Below the pieces are notes generated by a model. It was not told the origin of the DNA. It saw only the letters and a program-made list of their open reading frames with translations, and did no database searches. This document shows positions 3,023 through 32,108 of a stretch of 64,000 nt of DNA, piece after piece; positions within the stretch are counted from its first letter, which is position 1, and each line of letters starts with the position of its first letter. The position numbers and the translations under genes were made by a program. Source of the DNA: Paraburkholderia hospita (GTDB lineage: Bacteria; Pseudomonadota; Gammaproteobacteria; Burkholderiales; Burkholderiaceae); contig NZ_CP026107.1 of NCBI RefSeq assembly GCF_002902965.1, positions 2,294,001 to 2,358,000 on the forward strand. Reading direction: 5' to 3'.

Positions 3023-4357
3023 TCAGTACGCGTAACCGCTTATCACGCGCCTGACCGTTTCCAGCGACTCGCGCAGCACATCGAGTTCGACGGAACCCAA
3101 CGCGAGGCGGACCGCATGCGGCACATGGTGCGAGGTCGCATAGGGCTCGGCCGTCGACACCGAAATGCGCTCGCGCATGAGCGCCGCCGCAACCTGGTCA
3201 GCGCGCACTTCTTCCGACAACGGCAGCCAGACGAAATACGACGACGGGTGACGAACGCAATTCAGGCCCGCGAGAATCTCGGCGGCCATGGCTTGCCGGA
3301 TCTTCGCGTCGCGGCGTTTCTCCGCTTCCAGCCGCTTGACGGTGCCATCCTCGAGCCACGCGCACGCGATCGACGTCATCACGCCGGGCGTATTCCACGT
3401 CGTCGCCCTGATGATCCGCTCGATGGCTTGCATCGATTCAGCGGACGCCACGACAAAACCCACGCGCAGCCCCGTAGCGACGCTCTTCGAAAAACCGGAC
3501 ACGTACACGGTCGTTTCCGGCGCGAGCGCGGCAAGCGGCGCGGGCGGCTTGTCGGCGAGGAAGGCGTACGCGGCGTCTTCGACAATCAGTAGCCCATGCC
3601 GGCGCGCAATCGACACAAGTTGCTTGCGCCATTGCGCACTCGTCACCCAACTGAGCGGATTGTGCAGCGTCGGCATCACGTAGACGGCGCGCACGCGTCG
3701 CGTCCTGCACAAGCGTTCGAGCGCGTCGAGGTCGAACCCTTGCCCGTCCGCCGGGATCGGTGCCAGTTCGAGGCGACACGCCTCGGCCAGCACCCTGAAA
3801 CCCGGATACGTCAACGTGTCCACTGCGACCACGTCGCCAGGGCTTAGCAGCGCCATCACGGTCGACGCCAGGCCCGCTTGCGCGCCGTTCACGAGCGACA
3901 CCTGTTCCCAGCCGACTTCGAGCCCCCGGCTCGCGAGATGACGCGCTACGGCCGCACGTTCGTGCTGGCGTCCGCCATGCGGCTGATAGCGCAGCAGACT
4001 TTCCAGATCGCCGGACGCAGCAAGCTGGCGCAACGCGCCGCGCAACAGATCGGCCTGACCCGGCAGCGCCGGATAGTTGAAGTTGAGGTCGACCATGCCC
4101 GCCGCGAGCGCGAACTGATCGATGCCTTGTCTAGGCCGCAGCGAAATTTCCCGCACGAACGTGCCACGTCCCGTCTCTCCGCTGACGAGACCCATCGCCG
4201 CGAGCTCGGCGTAGACCCGCGTCGCCGTGACGAGCGCGAGGCCACGCTCGGACGCGAGCTGCCGATGCGTCGGCAGGCGCGTGCCGGCGCGCAAGCGTCC
4301 CGAGCGGATATCCGCGGCAAGCGTGTCGACAAGCTCCTTGTACCGGGGCTGAGCCAT
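3023..4357 (-). CDS. MocR-type regulator: GntR winged HTH fused to a PLP aminotransferase fold
   Basis: The protein is 444 residues long. An N-terminal GntR HTH (about residues 5-70, RYKELVDTLAADIRSGRL and LPTHRQLASERGLALVTATR) is joined to a fold-type I aminotransferase domain (about 105-444). The PLP lysine is in VSGFSKSVATGLRVG, and YVMPTLHNPLSW and EDAAYAFL give the cofactor pocket. MocR proteins sense PLP or amino compounds and often regulate a divergent gene. ATG 4357 was chosen; a TTG seven codons upstream would lie inside the inverted repeat at 4370-4395. It converges with the mandelate LysR gene (16-base gap) and is divergent from the DJ-1/PfpI gene. Confidence 0.88.
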   Translation of the reverse strand: MAQPRYKELVDTLAADIRSGRLRAGTRLPTHRQLASERGLALVTATRVYAELAAMGLVSGETGRGTFVREISLRPRQGIDQFALAAGMVDLNFNYPALPGQADLLRGALRQLAASGDLESLLRYQPHGGRQHERAAVARHLASRGLEVGWEQVSLVNGAQAGLASTVMALLSPGDVVAVDTLTYPGFRVLAEACRLELAPIPADGQGFDLDALERLCRTRRVRAVYVMPTLHNPLSWVTSAQWRKQLVSIARRHGLLIVEDAAYAFLADKPPAPLAALAPETTVYVSGFSKSVATGLRVGFVVASAESMQAIERIIRATTWNTPGVMTSIACAWLEDGTVKRLEAEKRRDAKIRQAMAAEILAGLNCVRHPSSYFVWLPLSEEVRADQVAAALMRERISVSTAEPYATSHHVPHAVRLALGSVELDVLRESLETVRRVISGYAY

Positions 4358-4369
4358 ATGCAGATGTAT

Positions 4370-4395
4370 CCATGACAATTATTTGATTGTAATGG
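4370..4395. promoter_or_regulatory. Inverted-repeat operator candidate for the MocR regulator
   Basis: CCATGACAAT at 4370-4379 and ATTGTAATGG at 4386-4395 form an inverted repeat (CCATnACAAT, 6-base spacer, ATTGTnATGG) with 9 of 10 positions paired. It lies in the 86-base gap between the divergent MocR and PfpI genes, 12 bases before the MocR ATG and 48 before the PfpI ATG, and could control both. Confidence 0.55.
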
Positions 4396-4443
4396 TATCT
4401 GCGCTTAGCATCTCTTCACCACATTCATCGGCGGGCGGACATC

Positions 4444-5061
4444 ATGCACATCGCGATTCTCACTTTCGAAGGCTTCAACGAACTCGATTCGCTGATTGCG
4501 CTCGGCATTCTCAACCGGATCAAGAAGCCGGACTGGCGCGTGTCGATTGCGACGCCGCATGCGCGCGTGAAGTCGATGAACGGCGTGGTGATCGAAGGGC
4601 AGATCGCGCTGCACGAGGCGAATGCTGCGGATGCAGTTATTGTTGGCAGCGGCATGTTGACGCGCAACGTCGTTGCCGATCAGACGTTGATGGCGCAGAT
4701 GCAATTCGACCCGTCGCGCCAACTGCTCGGCGCGCAGTGTTCCGGCACACTCGTGCTGGCGAAGCTCGGGCTGCTCAATGGCGTACCCGCCTGTACGGAC
4801 CTGACCACGAAGCCATGGGTCGAGGAAGCCGGCGTGGACGTGCTCAATCAGCCGTTCGTCGCGCGAGGCAACGTCGCGACTGCGGGCGGGTGTCTTGCGT
4901 CCCAGTATCTGGCCGCGTGGGTCATTGCGCGATTCGAAGGCGTCGATGCAGCCGCGAGCGCGATGCACTACGTCGCGCCTGTCGGCGAAAAGGAAGAGTA
5001 CGTTGCGCGCGCGATGCGCAATATCACGCCTTTTCTGCAAGAGACGAGCGCGGCCATTTAA
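4444..5061 (+). CDS. DJ-1/PfpI family protein
   Basis: This 205-residue single-domain protein has the glutamine-amidotransferase-like DJ-1/PfpI fold. Glu13 (FNELDS) and Cys99 in the nucleophile elbow AQCSGT correspond to the conserved Glu/Cys pair of DJ-1-type enzymes. GGxxARPWV-type text is replaced by DLTTKPWVEEAG. Members include isonitrile hydratases, glyoxalase III-like enzymes, amidases and chaperones, and the substrate cannot be told from sequence. It lacks the C-terminal AraC HTH seen in regulators of this family. Divergence from a PLP-binding MocR regulator suggests an amine- or aldehyde-related role. Confidence 0.82.
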   Translation: MHIAILTFEGFNELDSLIALGILNRIKKPDWRVSIATPHARVKSMNGVVIEGQIALHEANAADAVIVGSGMLTRNVVADQTLMAQMQFDPSRQLLGAQCSGTLVLAKLGLLNGVPACTDLTTKPWVEEAGVDVLNQPFVARGNVATAGGCLASQYLAAWVIARFEGVDAAASAMHYVAPVGEKEEYVARAMRNITPFLQETSAAI

Positions 5062-5192
5062 GCGCCGCACTTTTAAACCGTTTGCCGCTTCTCTGTTATC
5101 GAAATCGCGACACGATTCCCACGCGATGCGACATGGGAAAAGGTACGAAAAAGCCACCAAAAAATATTTATCGAATCCAGCGTCATATCCGC

Positions 5193-5219
5193 TCAAGCCG
5201 CCCCGATATCGGCCGACAA
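5193..5219 (+). promoter_or_regulatory. Sigma-28 (FliA)-type promoter candidate upstream of the chemoreceptor gene
   Basis: TCAAG at 5193-5197 and GCCGACAA at 5212-5219 are separated by exactly 14 bases. The classical enterobacterial flagellar promoter is TAAAG-N14-GCCGATAA, so 4 of 5 and 7 of 8 positions match. A palindrome CCGATATCGG (5204-5213) overlaps the spacer. The box is 90 bases before the TTG start of the chemoreceptor. Confidence 0.55.
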
Positions 5220-5308
5220 CCAACGTAATCAACGATGCGCATTGCTTCGTCTTTAGCGCACCGCAAGTCGATATCGGTTGGTAGTTCGTCATTGGGGCAG
5301 AGGTCATT

Positions 5309-7201
5309 TTGAAGCTTACGGATTCGATCGCATTCAAATTCAGCGCGGCATCGGGCGCCGCGCTCGCAGTCACGGTTCTACTTCTCACGACGGTCGGCGC
5401 GTTGAACGTGCGTCATCAGGCTGTCGACGAGTTCGAGCAGTCCAGTCACGCAAGAATCGTCCAGGCCGACGAATCGCTCGATGTGAGCTTCAAGGAGGTC
5501 GAACAGAACCTCACGTATCTGACGCAAACGGCGCAACTGAAAGCCGCCGACCAGAGCATCACCGACTATCTGAACCACGGCGGCCAGATGACGCCGGACA
5601 AGAACGGCGAAGTCGAGAAGTCGATCTTCGCGTTGCTCAAGCAGTTCGGCGACACGCATCCCAACATGCGCTATCTCGACATCGGCACGCATTGGGGCGG
5701 CTATGTGCAATGGCCGATCGAAAGCCTGAACGGCGAGCACTACGATCCGCGCGTCAGGCCGTGGTATCAACTGGCGATGACGGCGCCCGATCGTGTCGTG
5801 CGGCCCGCGCCTTATCTGAGCGCGGCCGGTTCCGGCGGCGCGATCATTCCGTTCGCGCGCGTCGTGAAGGACAGCAAGGACGAGATTCTCGGCGTGCTCG
5901 AAGGCGACATCTCGCTCGACGACTTCGCGCGACTCACCAGCGGGATCCAGTTCGGCAAGACTGGCTATCTGCTCGTCACGGACAGCAGCGGAAAAATTCT
6001 GATCGATCCGCGCGAGAAGAAACACGAGTTCAAGGAACTCAAGGGCCTGGGCGGCGGATACGAACAGCTGTCCAATGGCAGCGATGGGCTCGTTCGCATC
6101 CAGATGGACGGCGTCGAGTATCAGTCGTTCATCTACGCGTCGCCGAAGAACGGCTGGAAGTACTACGCGCTCGTGCCCGAATCGGAAATGATGGCGGCCG
6201 CCAACCGGCTCACGTGGACGCTGATCGGGATGGGGCTGCTGGTGCTCGTGGTCGCCGTGCTCATCATGATTGCATTGGGTCGCCGGATAACTGATCCCAT
6301 TCGCAATCTTGCCAACTCGATGCACGAAATCGCATCCGGCGACGGCGACATGACGCGGCGTCTGCCTCAACTCAGCAACGACGAAGTGGGCCATCTCGCG
6401 AAGCAGTTCAACGCATTCGTCGAAAAGCTGCATGGCGTTTTGCTTAAGGTGAGGACGAACAGCCGTCACCTCGAACTCGCTGCCGGTGAAGTGTCAGCGG
6501 GCAATCTCGATCTGTCGTCGAGAACCGAACAACAGGCGGCGTCGATCCAGCAAACGGCGGCCAGCATGGAAGAACTGGCGGGCACGGTGCGCGGCACGGC
6601 CGATCAGGCGACGACGGCCAACGCCGTCGCTGCGGGCGCCGTGGATGTGGCGCGGCGCGGCAACGAGGCCGTTGCGGGCGCGGCGAAGACGATGAACATC
6701 GCCGTCGAGCAATCGGGGCGCATCGTCGGCATTGTGGGGATGATCGAGGGCATCGCGTTCCAGACCAACATCCTGGCGTTGAATGCCGCTGTCGAATCGG
6801 CGCGCGCGGGCGAGAGCGGTCGTGGGTTTGCCGTCGTCGCCGCCGAAGTGCGCAACCTGGCGCAGCGTTCGACCAGCGCGGCAAAAGAGATCAAGGGATT
6901 GTTGGAGGCGTCCGTCGGCAATGTCGAGGCGGGTGCCGAACAGGTCAACCTCGCGGGCAAGACAATCGCCGAACTGACGGATGCCGTTTCCAACCTCGCC
7001 ACCATTACCAGCGAAATCGCGGATTCCGCACGCGAGCAAAGCCGCGCGATTGGCGAAGTGAATCAGGCGGTGTCGCTGATGGACCAGTCGACGCAGCAGA
7101 ACGCAGCGCTGGTGGAGGAGATTGCCGCCACGTCCGAATCGCTCAGCACGCAAGGCAAGGATCTGAACGCGACGGTTGGGTTCTTCAAGCTCGGTGCTTG
7201 A
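5309..7201 (+). CDS. Methyl-accepting chemotaxis protein with periplasmic Cache sensor
   Basis: The 630-residue receptor has an N-terminal membrane helix (about residues 12-33) and a periplasmic dCache-like sensor domain (about 40-290; [10 protein letters not shown] and [20 protein letters not shown] are typical). A second membrane helix follows (about 300-322), then HAMP (about 322-375) and a cytoplasmic signalling domain whose hairpin tip reads [17 protein letters not shown]. It ends in VGFFKLGA and lacks the NWETF-type CheR tether. The start is TTG at 5309 after GGGGCAGAGG. Cache sensors usually bind amino or organic acids; the ligand is unknown. It appears monocistronic, with a sigma-28-like promoter upstream and a long terminator hairpin downstream. 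Confidence 0.94.
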
Positions 7202-7216
7202 GGCGCGCAACAGTTA

Positions 7217-7254
7217 GCAGCAAAGCGGCCCGAGCCTAATCGCCGCTTTGCTGC
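7217..7254. terminator. Bidirectional hairpin between chemoreceptor and TetR genes
   Basis: A perfect 13-base inverted repeat (GCAGCAAAGCGGC at 7217-7229 and GCCGCTTTGCTGC at 7242-7254, 12-base loop) follows the chemoreceptor stop by 15 bases and overlaps the last codons of the convergent TetR gene. There is no T-run, so Rho assistance or simple mRNA 3'-end protection is possible. Confidence 0.6.
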
Positions 7255-7865
7255 GACGCCGAGACGAGATACATGCGTAGGAGTTGACGCATTTCGGCGA
7301 GCAGCGCCGCTCGCACCGAAGATTCCTCGTCGGCGATGCCGACGACGGCCTTCAGCATATGGATCAGCACCACCGACATCACCTTCGCCTTCGCGGCGGG
7401 CAACGCGGGAATCGCTTCACACAGGATATCCGCCACACCGCCGCGCATGACCTTGCGAAAGCGCTTGCGTTCGTCCACGCTTCCGCCGCGTGCATCCATC
7501 AACGCGATCGCGAAACTGCGCTGCGACCGTAGCAGAAGCATCATATCGACGAATGCGTCGGCCACACGCTCCAGCGTCATGCCGGGTACCTGTTGTTTCA
7601 GTTCGGTCAGCCCGTTCTTCACGTGCTGCGCGTATTGCAGCAGCAGTGCATCGGCAAGCGCCTCCTTGGTCGGAAAGAAGCGATACAGCGAGCCGATCGC
7701 CGTTCCCGAACGCGCCGCGATCTCAGTCATCGTGGCGGCATCGTAACCCTTCTCCGAAAATACTTCGACGCCCGCGGTCATGATCGCGGCGACGCGCAGC
7801 CGCCCTCGTTCGCGTTTGGGTTCGGTGGCGCGCGCCGGGTCGGTTGATGATGTGCTCATAGTCAT
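7236..7865 (-). CDS. TetR/AcrR-family repressor
   Basis: The 209-residue protein has a TetR N-terminal HTH at about residues 24-70 (IMTAGVEVFSEKGYDAATMTEIA, then SGTAIGSLYRFFPTKEALADAL) and an all-helical C-terminal ligand domain. Two in-frame ATGs (7865 and 7859) are possible, and neither has a good Shine-Dalgarno. It is divergent from an AbrB-family membrane protein gene. The region between them carries three GAGGA/TCCTC dyads, one inside the spacer of the promoter that reads toward the membrane protein. This points to local repression of the neighbour and of itself. Confidence 0.9.
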   Translation of the reverse strand: MTMSTSSTDPARATEPKRERGRLRVAAIMTAGVEVFSEKGYDAATMTEIAARSGTAIGSLYRFFPTKEALADALLLQYAQHVKNGLTELKQQVPGMTLERVADAFVDMMLLLRSQRSFAIALMDARGGSVDERKRFRKVMRGGVADILCEAIPALPAAKAKVMSVVLIHMLKAVVGIADEESSVRAALLAEMRQLLRMYLVSASQQSGD

Positions 7866-28871: not shown

Positions 28872-29105
28872 TTACTGCGACATCGCCCCCGACGCCGGAT
28901 GATCCATTCCCATCGCGTCGTGCTTCTTCATCTTGTCGCTCTTCTTCATCGAATCGTGCGACATGTTGTCCTTTTTCATCGCGTCGTGCGACATGCTGTC
29001 TTTGCTCATCGCATCGTTTGCCATCGCGCCGCTTGCTTGCGCGAATGCAGCCGTCGTGCCTAACGCCATCGCTGCTGCGAATACTGCCGTCATCAGTCGT
29101 TTCAT
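28872..29105 (-). CDS. Exported pentapeptide MxKDx repeat protein
   Basis: The 77-residue protein has a signal peptide (MKRLMTAVFAAAMALGTTAAFAQ). The mature part is built of Met-x-Lys/His-Asp-x-type five-residue repeats (AMSKDSMSHDAMKKDNMSH and so on), rich in Met, His, Asp and Lys. Proteins of this kind are small, periplasmic and of unknown function; Met/His/Asp richness suggests metal binding or sacrificial methionine oxidation. It lies 68 bases downstream of the sulfite-oxidase-like gene in the same direction and probably belongs to the SigF-controlled operon. Confidence 0.88.
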   Translation of the reverse strand: MKRLMTAVFAAAMALGTTAAFAQASGAMANDAMSKDSMSHDAMKKDNMSHDSMKKSDKMKKHDAMGMDHPASGAMSQ

Positions 29106-29173: not shown

Positions 29174-29950
29174 TCAGGAACCGCCGAACCAGTTGTAGCC
29201 CTGATCGACCCAATAGCCGCCGGGATAGGTATTGGTAACGAAGATCTCGACGATATGCTTCGGGTTCTTGTAGCCGAGCTTGGTCGGCATCCGTAGCTTC
29301 ATCGGGTAGCCGTATTTCGCAGGCAAACGCTCGCCGTCGTATTCGAACGTGAGCAAGGTCTGCGGATGCAGCGCCGTCGGCATGTCGATGCTCTCGTAGT
29401 AGTCGTCGGCGCAGCGAAAGCCGACATACTTCGCGCTCGTATCCGCCCCGACGCGGCGCAGGAACTCCGCGAACGGCGTGCCGCCCCAGCGTCCGATTGC
29501 GCTCCACCCTTCCACGCAGATATGCCGCGTGATCTGCTCCGCGTGCGGCAGCGCGTACAACTCGGGCAGCGTCCACACGCGTTGCCCTGTCACGAGACCG
29601 CTGACCTTCAGCCGATAGTCGCTGCCGTTCACTTCGGGCACGTCGTCGATGCCGTAGAACGCATTGAACGGAAAGGGCCGCGTGAGTTGCGCTTCGGTGT
29701 AGGTCGGCGCGAGCTGGTTCGGATCGAACAGGAACGCCTGCGCGCGATCGTTCAGCCGTGAGACGGCAGTCAGAAATGCGTTGACCGATTTGTCGTCGGT
29801 GATCGAGCAGCCTGTGAGCAGCGACAGGCCGCCCAAGGTCAACAGGCGCTTGCCGAACAGACGGCGCGAAGGCATGTCCAGTTCGCGGCGCGCATCCGCG
29901 AGAATCGCTGCGCGGTCGAGCTTGATGATGGGTTTGTCGTCGGTCTTCAT
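29174..29950 (-). CDS. Tat-exported molybdopterin oxidoreductase (sulfite oxidase/MsrP fold)
   Basis: The 258-residue protein has the SUOX-type molybdopterin domain: DYRLKVSGLVTG, the cofactor cysteine C145 in RHICVEGWSAIGRWGG, and KYGYPMKLRMPTKLGYKNPKHI. The N-terminal SRRLFGK (28-34) fits a twin-arginine motif. It is followed by a hydrophobic stretch and a lipobox-like LLTGC with C48, so a Tat-exported membrane-anchored lipoprotein is likely. With the neighbouring cytochrome b as electron donor this resembles the MsrPQ methionine-sulfoxide repair pair, or a sulfite oxidase. It follows the cytochrome gene by 20 bases. Confidence 0.87.
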   Translation of the reverse strand: MKTDDKPIIKLDRAAILADARRELDMPSRRLFGKRLLTLGGLSLLTGCSITDDKSVNAFLTAVSRLNDRAQAFLFDPNQLAPTYTEAQLTRPFPFNAFYGIDDVPEVNGSDYRLKVSGLVTGQRVWTLPELYALPHAEQITRHICVEGWSAIGRWGGTPFAEFLRRVGADTSAKYVGFRCADDYYESIDMPTALHPQTLLTFEYDGERLPAKYGYPMKLRMPTKLGYKNPKHIVEIFVTNTYPGGYWVDQGYNWFGGS

Positions 29951-29970: not shown

Positions 29971-30609
29971 TCAGCGGCCGCGCAACATGGTCAGGAGCGA
30001 GCGCGGCACGAGCGCGACCATCGCGACATGCACGACGACGAACGCCGCCATCACAGCCATCGCGCAGAAGTGAACGATGCGCGCGTTGTCATAGCCGCCC
30101 ATCAGCTCGCGCAACAGCGGAAACTGGACCGACTTCCAGATCGCAAGCCCCGACAGCACGAGCACCACGAGATCGACGATCACGACGAGATACGCGAGCT
30201 TCTGCACCGCGTTGTACTGGCGCAAATCTGTGTGAGCGAGCTTGCCGCTCAATGCGGCGAGGAAGTCGCGCAGCACGGCGCGCGGCGAGATCGGGAAGAA
30301 CTTCGCGACGAGGCGCCCGCTTGCGATGTTCAGCGCGAGATACAGGATGCCGTTGAACACCAGCAGCCACATCGCCGCGAAGTGCCATTGCAGCGCGCCG
30401 CCAAGCCAGCCGCCGAGGGTAATAGACGGTGGAATCACGATGTTGTGAAACACCGGCGACGCGTCATAGATGCGCCAGCCCGAGAACATCATCACGAGTG
30501 CGGCGAAAGCATTGAGCCAATGCGTGATGCGCAGCCAGATCGGATGAATCGGTGCATTGCGCGGTGCGGTTTCGGGTGCCGGAGTGAGGGTCGCTTTCAT
30601 CGTGTCCAT
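29971..30609 (-). CDS. Cytochrome b561-type membrane protein
   Basis: The 212-residue protein has four or more hydrophobic helices with haem-ligand histidines in PIHPIWLRITHWLNAFAALV, WHFAAMWLLVF and VHFCAMAVMAAFVVVHV, as in the Ni-Fe hydrogenase/thiosulfate-reductase cytochrome b family. It probably passes quinol electrons to the periplasmic molybdoenzyme encoded next. ATG 30609 was chosen because the SigF-type promoter at 30642-30667 would start transcription at about 30635, too late for the upstream ATG at 30636. Confidence 0.87.
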   Translation of the reverse strand: MDTMKATLTPAPETAPRNAPIHPIWLRITHWLNAFAALVMMFSGWRIYDASPVFHNIVIPPSITLGGWLGGALQWHFAAMWLLVFNGILYLALNIASGRLVAKFFPISPRAVLRDFLAALSGKLAHTDLRQYNAVQKLAYLVVIVDLVVLVLSGLAIWKSVQFPLLRELMGGYDNARIVHFCAMAVMAAFVVVHVAMVALVPRSLLTMLRGR

Positions 30610-30641
30610 GTCGATCACCATGACGGTCTGATACACGTCAA

Positions 30642-30667
30642 TTCGTCAGGGACACGGGATTGGTTAC
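30642..30667 (-). promoter_or_regulatory. SigF-type ECF promoter for the cytochrome b561-molybdoenzyme operon
   Basis: Read on the minus strand, TGTAACC-N16-CGAATT is seen (GTAACC 30667-30662, CGAA 30645-30642). It is identical in boxes and spacing to the divergent promoter at 30725-30750. This matches the GTAACC-N16-CGAA element that I recall for Caulobacter SigF. Confidence 0.75.
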
Positions 30668-30724
30668 AGCATCGCGTGCTTTTTCGAGCAATTCACTCCG
30701 CTCGCGAAAAAATTTCGCACACGT

Positions 30725-30750
30725 GTAACCAGAAACGGTGAAACGACGAA
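30725..30750 (+). promoter_or_regulatory. SigF-type ECF promoter for the sigma factor/anti-sigma operon
   Basis: GTAACC (30725-30730), 16 bases, CGAA (30747-30750), with the same flanks as the divergent copy (T before, TT after). It is 172 bases before the sigma factor ATG, implying autoregulation. Confidence 0.75.
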
Positions 30751-30921
30751 TTAACCCGGTAAAGGAGGCGGGTGACGACGATGGACGACGACCGCGCTAT
30801 AGTGGCGCATCACGGCTTCGGCTGTGCCGAAACGCTCGATCTGAAGCTCAGCGCCCCGCTCGCCGCGGCAGCGAGCCACGTGCACGTCTCGTCGTCTCGC
30901 CGTCCTGCCAATAAGGGAGTC

Positions 30922-31470
30922 ATGTTGCAAGAAGCGGAAAGCCGCCTGAAAGCGTTGTTCGTTCGCGGTCTCGACGGCGATGCCGACGCTTATCGCAGCT
31001 TTCTGCAGGCACTCACGCGGCACCTGCGCGGCTTTCTGCGCAGACGCATTCCGAACTATCGCGACGACGTCGAAGACCTCGTCCAGGAGATTCTGCTCGC
31101 GGTGCACAATGCGCGTCACACCTATCGTCCGGACGAACCGCTGACTGCGTGGCTGCACGCGATCGCCCGCTACAAGCTGATGGATTTCTTCCGCTCGCGC
31201 GCACGCCGCGAATCCCTGAACGATCCGCTCGACGACTACGCCGAGCTGCTCGCCGACACCGACGACGAACCCGCCCAGGCGCGCCACGACATCGGCAAGC
31301 TGCTCGAACATCTGCCCGACAAGCAGCGGCTGCCCATCGTTCACATGAAGCTCGAAGGCCTGTCGGTGACGGAGACGGCGCGCATCACGGGCCTGTCCGA
31401 ATCGGCCGTGAAGGTCGGCGTGCACAGGGGTCTCAAGGCGCTGTCCGCGCTCATTCGGGGGCTGCGATGA
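30922..31470 (+). CDS. sigF: ECF sigma factor, SigF-like
   Basis: The 182-residue protein has sigma region 2 (about 20-85; [35 protein letters not shown]) and region 4 (about 125-178; [23 protein letters not shown] and [19 protein letters not shown]). ATG 30922 has GGGAG just upstream and starts [13 protein letters not shown]. It overlaps the next gene by four bases (ATGA), so the sigma factor and its membrane regulator are made together. It faces a redox-repair operon with the same promoter motif. The symbol follows the Caulobacter SigF/NrsF pair by analogy. Confidence 0.92.
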
Positions 31471-32108
31471 AGACCGACGATCTCATTGGCCTGCTGTCGA
31501 ACCAGGTGACGCGTATCGAGCGCGGCGCTGTTGCGCGCCGCTTCACCAAAGCGCTGCTGCTCGGCGCGTTGGGCTCGCTGATCCTGATGAGCGTGGTGTT
31601 CGGCGTGCGGCACGATCTGGGCAGCGTCGCGCGCACCACCATCTTCTGGGCGAAGATGGCATATCCGCTTGCGATCGCGGTGGGCGCGATGCTCGCCGTG
31701 ATGCGGCTCGGCCGACCGGGCGCGCGTGCGGGCTATTCGTGGGCGATCATCGCGTTGCCGTTTGTCGCGGTGTGGATCGCGAGCATGATGGTGCTCGACA
31801 GCGCGGCGCCCGGCACGCGCTTGCCGATCGTGCTCGGTCATACGTGGCGCACGTGCCCGTTCAATATCGTGCTGCTGTCGGTGCCGACGTTTCCTGCCGT
31901 GTTCTGGGCCGTCAAGTCCCTTGCGCCGACGCAGTTGCGGCTCGCGGGTGCCGTCGCCGGGCTGCTTGCGAGTTCCACTGCGACGATCGTGTATTGCCTG
32001 CATTGCCCGGAGATGAGCCCGGCGTTCTGGAGCGTGTGGTACGCGATCGGGATGTTGCTGCCCGCGGGCATCGGCGCGTGGCTGGGGCCGAAGCTGTTGC
32101 GCTGGTAG
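31467..32108 (+). CDS. nrsF: NrsF-family (DUF1109) membrane anti-sigma factor
   Basis: The 213-residue protein has a short cytoplasmic N-terminus and about six membrane helices, as expected for DUF1109/NrsF, which sequesters SigF at the membrane. Cys130 (HTWRTCPFN) and Cys177/Cys180 ([14 protein letters not shown]) lie at almost the positions of the two cysteines that I recall as necessary in the Caulobacter protein (about 131 and 181), so redox or metal sensing is plausible. Its ATG overlaps the sigma factor stop. Confidence 0.9.

Follow-up and report, generated by a model that had tools for sequence, protein, structure and literature searches.

A stress-sensing sigma factor of Paraburkholderia hospita probably switches on its own gene together with a divergent operon for the repair of oxidised methionine, through two back-to-back copies of one promoter element; circuits of this kind are already known. 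We give a probability of about 0.86 to the reading that both boxes are promoters of a single ECF16 SigF circuit, held by NrsF and released by an oxidant, which would drive sigF-nrsF and the methionine-repair operon. Promoter identity, conservation, gene content and the sites of the candidate regulon were observed directly, in the window (the whole stretch of 64,000 nucleotides that was analysed), in the complete genome and in related loci. The interpretation given in an earlier note on this DNA turned out to be mostly right, its general claim not being new. A known design of oxidant defence, in which ECF16 goes together with MrpX and a YedY-type reductase, is extended here to another large bacterial group, the closest named relatives being Paraburkholderia and Caballeronia.

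Twin promoter boxes and the genes they face

The region contains the following features:

28872..29105, minus strand: MrpX-type methionine-rich peptide; TIGR02953 (pentapeptide MXKDX), 49.1 bits, cut-off 41
29174..29950, minus strand: YedY-like molybdoenzyme, PF00174; N-terminus with twin-arginine SRRLFGK and lipobox-like LTGC, both identified by eye
29971..30609, minus strand: cytochrome b561-type membrane subunit, PF01292; predicted YedZ1/MsrQ-like role
30640..30668, minus strand: SigF-type promoter of the cytochrome b561 operon; -35 box TGTAACC (30668-30662), spacer of 16, -10 box CGAATT (30645-30640)
30680..30684, minus strand: A/T tract, UP-element-like, ahead of the cytochrome-side -35 box
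30707..30715, plus strand: A/T tract (AAAAAATTT), UP-element-like, 9-17 bases ahead of the sigma-side -35 box
30724..30752, plus strand: SigF-type promoter of sigF-nrsF; -35 box TGTAACC (30724-30730), spacer of 16, -10 box CGAATT (30747-30752)
30781..31470, plus strand: candidate long form of sigF, 229 residues, from ATG 30781 (GTG 30772 is possible too); ribosome site AAAGGAGG directly 3' of the promoter
30922..31470, plus strand: short, canonical form of sigF, from ATG 30922 (TTG 30925 adjacent); ECF sigma regions 2 and 4
31467..32108, plus strand: nrsF, membrane anti-sigma factor (DUF1109/NrsF); PF06532, 242 bits, cut-off 26.8

The window contains two exact copies of TGTAACC-N16-CGAATT and 100 dinucleotide-preserving shuffles contain none, so that the earlier observation of twin exact strings on both strands is borne out (minus strand 30668-30640, TGTAACCAATCCCGTGTCCCTGACGAATT; plus strand 30724-30752, TGTAACCAGAAACGGTGAAACGACGAATT). 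The pair had been placed at 30642..30750; the site is correct, and the pair in fact spans 30640-30752, reaching two bases further at either end. The boxes are arranged back to back, with 55 bases (30669-30723) between the two -35 boxes. When up to two mismatches (and CGAAYT) were allowed, we found four sites in all in the window, the two extra ones being about what chance provides (mean 1.31). Transcription is predicted to start near 30634 on the minus strand and near 30758 on the plus strand, since the mapped start of Bradyrhizobium EcfF lies 6 bases after the -10 box. Between 28700 and 32300, a simple scan for housekeeping promoters and terminators found none; for the promoters, its pattern was the sigma-70-like one of the E. 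coli type, with 0.8 matches expected.

The product of sigF matches PF04542 and PF08281 as well as the NCBI subfamily PRK12536 (324.6 bits, over the cut-off of 250), with an N-terminal extension added. NrsF lies under the NCBI equivalog cut-off (149.5 of 300 bits). Its Cys130 and Cys180 are conserved and have their counterparts at positions 129 and 179 of OsrA; among 80 related loci, the first cysteine occurs as WRTC or WRSC in 66 and the second in all. We thus find together what characterises an ECF16/SigF-NrsF system: ECF sigma regions 2 and 4, an adjacent DUF1109/NrsF anti-sigma factor, the two cysteines and the promoter. The window boxes agree with the group consensus (T/C)GTAAC-N17-CGAA quoted in PMC8315932.

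On the other side, the best solved relative of the molybdoenzyme is 1xdq, whose molecule is named Bacterial Sulfite Oxidase, and the score against the NCBI MsrP equivalog NF003767 (81.4 bits, cut-off 207) stays below the threshold; judged by its sequence, the enzyme is YedY-like and we do not file it as MsrP. The MrpX-type peptide has 77 residues, with a signal peptide recognised by eye followed by 10 methionines in 53 residues. The operon therefore combines the three elements of an MrpX-YedYZ system, namely a methionine-rich peptide with a signal peptide (by eye), a YedY-type molybdoenzyme and a b-type cytochrome. An RNA-family search gave nothing beyond a single hit below the threshold, to the Burkholderia sRNA Bp2_287 and within the cytochrome gene (30296-30413, plus strand; 23.5 of 70 bits, E 0.021), which is probably due to chance.

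Conservation and candidate regulon

Relatives were collected through NrsF, and the best 80 of 324 were kept, making 81 loci with the window. The cytochrome gene is divergent within 900 bases in 48 of the 81 (window included) and is not in 33. The target-side core is perfect, with a spacer of 16, in all 48 loci, and its final two bases are TT in 42 and CT in 6. In five of them it precedes mrpX, which heads the operon there and is the last gene of the operon in the window. On the sigma side the core is perfect in 40 loci, begins with TGTAACG in 7 and is lacking in one (L085), giving 40/48 loci with a perfect core on both sides. Positions -17 to -12 are 81-91% A/T on the sigma side (47 loci) and 71-92% A/T on the cytochrome side (48 loci), where a GC directly 5' of TGTAACC is also kept (G 94% and C 92% at -2/-1, 48 loci). 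Because the cores are conserved on both sides and are accompanied by the A/T tracts and by the GC ahead of TGTAACC, the promoter reading is firm at the level of sequence. The boxes are thus strongly conserved promoters of the ECF16/SigF kind facing sigF-nrsF and the cytochrome b561/molybdoenzyme operon, as the earlier note had proposed.

At the scale of the genus, a divergent pair of cores with 40-70 bases between them is present in 32 of 144 genomes (reversed control, 0). We fetched 30 of these 32 pairs, and all lie by SigF-type genes: 26 between sigF and cytB, three with DUF1223 opposite mrpX or cytB, and one at a bufferin gene (bufA).

Across relatives, 22 to 98 bases separate the two -35 boxes, with clusters near 31, 44, 55 and 66. 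A helical phasing of the two boxes was considered and dropped, since the clusters may follow relatedness and the period would be chosen post hoc. At a gap of about 30 bases, a single A/T tract could serve both promoters.

It had been claimed that the promoter fixes the start of the cytochrome gene at 30609. This start is favoured by a GGTGA stretch 5 bases ahead of it and by comparison among loci, an ATG standing at that position in 23/48 and the others beginning a few codons off, according to our own reading of the alignment output. The promoter alone does not set it, and we rejected that argument: the in-frame ATG 30621 also sits after the promoter (an ATG of this type is present in 8/48 loci). 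A longer open frame from GTG 30636 would open ahead of the predicted transcript start.

The earlier note had suggested a genome scan to list the regulon. We ran it on 11.5 Mb in 6 contigs, with expectations calculated from the base composition of the window and the reversed motif as control. The exact string has four copies (0.11 expected) and the relaxed form TGTAACS-N16-CGAAYT has five (0.59 expected), the reversed control giving 0 in both cases. All five relaxed sites precede genes: sigF-nrsF; cytb561-YedY-like-mrpX; a bufferin operon; a DUF1223 gene; and a CxxCxxCC gene. This short candidate regulon thus includes two gene families with no assigned role, DUF1223 and CxxCxxCC. The bare Caulobacter core GTAACC-N16-CGAA was rejected as a regulon finder, its 17 sites comparing with an expectation of 16.3 and with 15 sites for the reversed motif; the five of the 17 that fit the longer form were inspected singly. 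The signal is carried by the extra T and the final TT or CT, not by the bare core. The equation of the element with that of Caulobacter SigF, printed as GTAACC-N16-CGAA in PMC3511200, holds for the core, and the core alone is at chance level in this genome.

The bufferin operon (bufA/DUF2282-bufB/DUF692-DUF2063-DoxX-nrsF2) lies beside a second sigF, and the two sigF copies of the genome share the promoter element:

L135 (contig C1 2844000-2854000), about 3493-4056: sigF2, with the buf operon at 4222-7387

The Caulobacter SigF regulon reportedly includes two paralogous operons of the DUF2282/DUF692 type. No nrsF is found directly 3' of sigF2, and immediately 5' of it is what remains of an NrsF C-terminus, with a stop; the NrsF that ends the bufferin operon has no first conserved cysteine (WRTT) and keeps the second. 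The CxxCxxCC gene stands just upstream of the DUF1223 gene (L136 3744-5363, contig C3 about 1327.7-1329.4 kb), and each has its own SigF-type promoter. Of 58 genus genomes searched for DUF1223, 47 gave a match and 30 loci were fetched. The core, with any flanks, lies between 120 bases before and 60 bases after the aligned DUF1223 start in 14/30 loci; all 14 are among the 23 loci with at least 53% identity, and none is among the remaining seven.

A proposed circuit and its known relatives

In the scheme that we propose, sensing, inducer, activation and enzyme function are modelled on relatives. NrsF would hold SigF inactive at the membrane until Cys130 and Cys180 of NrsF sense an oxidant in the envelope, hypochlorite or a comparable oxidant of methionine being the most likely one, and SigF is freed. 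The SigF-RNA polymerase would read in both directions from the shared region. Transcription of sigF-nrsF would bring self-amplification and renewed anti-sigma factor; that SigF drives itself, as the earlier note stated, is a fair prediction from the DNA. The cytb561-YedY-like-mrpX operon would supply a periplasmic methionine-rich scavenger peptide and a quinone-linked enzyme reducing its methionine sulfoxides. The bufferin operon and the DUF1223 and CxxCxxCC genes would also be read, by SigF or by the second SigF.

The same gene set as in the window is said to occur in a betaproteobacterium, Azospira suillum (Melnyk, reportedly in 2015). The Azospira set SigF/NrsF-MrpX-YedY1-YedZ1, described in PMC4623255 and PMC8315932, resembles our scheme in the scavenging of hypochlorite by methionine cycling but, unlike the window genes, is located in a perchlorate-reduction island. 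A similar kind of gene set is reported for Brucella melitensis, with BcrS/AbcS and bcrXQP, where HOCl induces the ECF16-controlled MrpX/Msr operon (PMC8315932); there the peptide gene adjoins the sigma gene, whereas it is the last of the operon in the window, and the regulons differ. Caulobacter crescentus SigF/NrsF shares the core GTAACC-N16-CGAA, a YedY in the regulon and the two NrsF cysteines; it differs in that YedY is unlinked (by locus number), in that the regulon responds to chromate and cadmium rather than peroxide, and in that sigF is reported as not strongly autoregulated (PMC3511200). In Sinorhizobium meliloti, RpoE7/EcfR7 also has two divergent ECF16 promoters, the sigma operon facing a DUF692/DUF2063 operon; the target is of the bufferin type, not a reductase, and the pair is reported not to be induced by peroxide, cadmium or chromate (PMC6180224). 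In Bradyrhizobium, both binding and the response to peroxide require the cysteines of the anti-sigma factor (PMC3420878).

Both the ECF16 consensus and the divergent sigma/MrpX-Msr layout (that of Brucella) have been published before. PMC3420878 quotes tGTAACc-N16-CGAA as a consensus of group 16, with Proteobacteria given for the group. The conservation of promoter recognition across classes, which the earlier note had put forward, is therefore an idea already published, to which the beta- and gammaproteobacterial loci add sequence support; the mapped promoters that we encountered (Caulobacter, Bradyrhizobium, Sinorhizobium, Brucella) are all alphaproteobacterial.

Could the strings be conserved operators of a repressor or an activator instead of -35 and -10 boxes? 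A mirror-image arrangement of two spaced boxes on either strand of a divergent region would suit such sites. However, the boxes are directional, their 16-base spacer stays fixed in surroundings that vary, and each of those in the window is closely followed by a gene start; moreover, the gap between the -35 boxes is far from constant (22 to 98 bases), and the same string has been identified as -35/-10 by 5'-RACE or primer extension in relatives. We consider operators very improbable. It is also unlikely, though less so, that the sites serve mainly SigF2 (contig C1) or another ECF factor, with a minor role for the local sigF. The second factor sits beside an identical promoter fronting the bufferin operon, the sigF promoters of Caulobacter and Brucella are reported to stay active without SigF, and a further factor may contribute to transcription of the sigma gene of Brucella (PMC8315932). 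Against this, among the 27 fetched genus pairs with cytB, sigF is opposite in 26 and DUF1223 in one, and the sigma-side box is at most one base off in 47/48 sigF loci. One specificity common to both SigF factors is more likely.

Promoter position and the start of the sigma gene

Just after the sigma-side promoter begins a translated-looking N-terminal extension of 47 residues, followed by a conserved internal start. ATG 30781 sits 28 bases after the promoter, with a ribosome-site energy of -13.1 kcal/mol. Public annotation is split, clusters of 229 and 181 residues both being among the matches listed (120 of 6785). We counted starts in 42/48 loci, in which the canonical place lies 136-331 bases from the promoter; L091, L095, L099, L101 and L104, with the promoter on the start codon, and L085, with no sigma-side promoter, were left out. 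The 42 loci are related, so that the following counts are not independent trials.

At the canonical place (the codon or ±1 codon) a start codon is present in 42/42 loci (23 TTG, 18 ATG and 1 GTG), with a ribosome-site-like stretch in 40; by the same criteria, 1664 control positions in the extension give a start in 10.4% and a start with a ribosome site in 0.9%. A start stands at the exact aligned codon in 17/42 loci, and TTG makes up 12% of the Leu codons in the sigma core. Upstream, the sigma frame is free of stops beyond +40 from the promoter in 42/42 loci, the other two frames being stopped in 28 and 34 of them. An ATG or GTG near the promoter with a ribosome-site energy of at most -6 kcal/mol (mean at control positions, -3.1) was observed in 21/24 loci of the window's group vs 8/18 of the others.

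These observations bear in two ways on whether 30753-30921 is merely an untranslated leader of sigF, with only the canonical start in use. The conservation of the canonical start with its ribosome-site-like stretch in 40/42 loci fits a leader, as do the scarcity of strong near-promoter starts in the longer group (8/18) and the fast evolution of the extension, which is weakly constrained overall (rough omega 0.75 vs 0.08 in the core). On the other hand, its length varies among loci and the frame is maintained, without a stop after +40 in any of the 42; strong near-promoter starts are the rule in the window's group; and the first residues of the extension form a conserved block, (M)DxDxAIAAHHGFGYxET. 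We find the leader doubtful, with odds clearly against it. Judging from the alignments, two start sites in the same frame are very likely present on the sigF transcript, the gene may yield two protein forms, and dual initiation, as in Streptomyces SigR, would be the plainest reading of the two starts. SigR has RsrA as its anti-sigma factor and belongs to another ECF subgroup than the window's factor. In Streptomyces coelicolor, a self-activated upstream promoter gives SigR', with 55 extra N-terminal residues, the canonical start lying further in, which works like the extended and canonical starts predicted for the window; there, the short form has its own promoter and the long form is known to be unstable (PMC4921905). 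The material available from PMC8315932 mentions no second isoform of Brucella BcrS.

In 21/80 loci the promoter lies on the sigma start itself: TGTAACC-N16-CGAA contains the in-frame sigma ATG at a constant position of the spacer (for example L104 5415-5443). These loci, among L076-L104, belong to Paraburkholderia, Caballeronia, Pararobbsia and Pseudomonas. In a family sample of 150 genomes, we found the overlap layout in 10 genomes at 11 sites, 10 of which open a sigma factor of 190 residues. Since transcription starts 6 bases after the -10 box in Bradyrhizobium EcfF, the self-activated transcript of such a locus would leave out the sigma ATG and should encode only the anti-sigma factor. Much the same overlap is reported for Bradyrhizobium EcfF/OsrA, where the mapped start overlaps the annotated sigma ATG and the authors shifted the start downstream (PMC3420878). 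Unlike there, three of the 21 loci (L091, L099 and L104) have no in-frame ATG, GTG or TTG within 120 bases past the promoter end; going by their reading frames, a downstream start of the Bradyrhizobium type is impossible in these three with ordinary start codons unless it cuts deep into the protein. The other overlap loci have a later in-frame start, often inside region 2.

We tentatively suggest, with odds somewhat below even, that the type of feedback depends on where the promoter lies with respect to the sigma start. For the lineage of the window, in which 169 bases separate the promoter end from the canonical start, the product would be an extended SigF (47 more residues, with the HHGFGY-type block) plus the canonical one, an independent proteobacterial counterpart of SigR'; in the overlap lineages, with the ATG in the 16-base spacer, it would be the anti-sigma factor only, a built-in negative feedback. 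If true, one promoter type would give positive or negative feedback by a mere shift with respect to the start codon. The candidate two-start sigma gene and the promoter overlapping the start codon are new here, and among the papers listed by searches of the open literature, at most 20 for each search, there was no report of a two-start ECF16 sigma factor or of DUF1223 under SigF.

In a tree of 79 sigma sequences, the distant-promoter loci and the promoter-on-start-codon loci need two changes each. Three of the 82 rows (L054, L055 and L056, of Caballeronia type) were left out of it: in their sigF the matched stretch is interrupted by a stop at residue 76, and the adjoining nrsF aligns over its full length.
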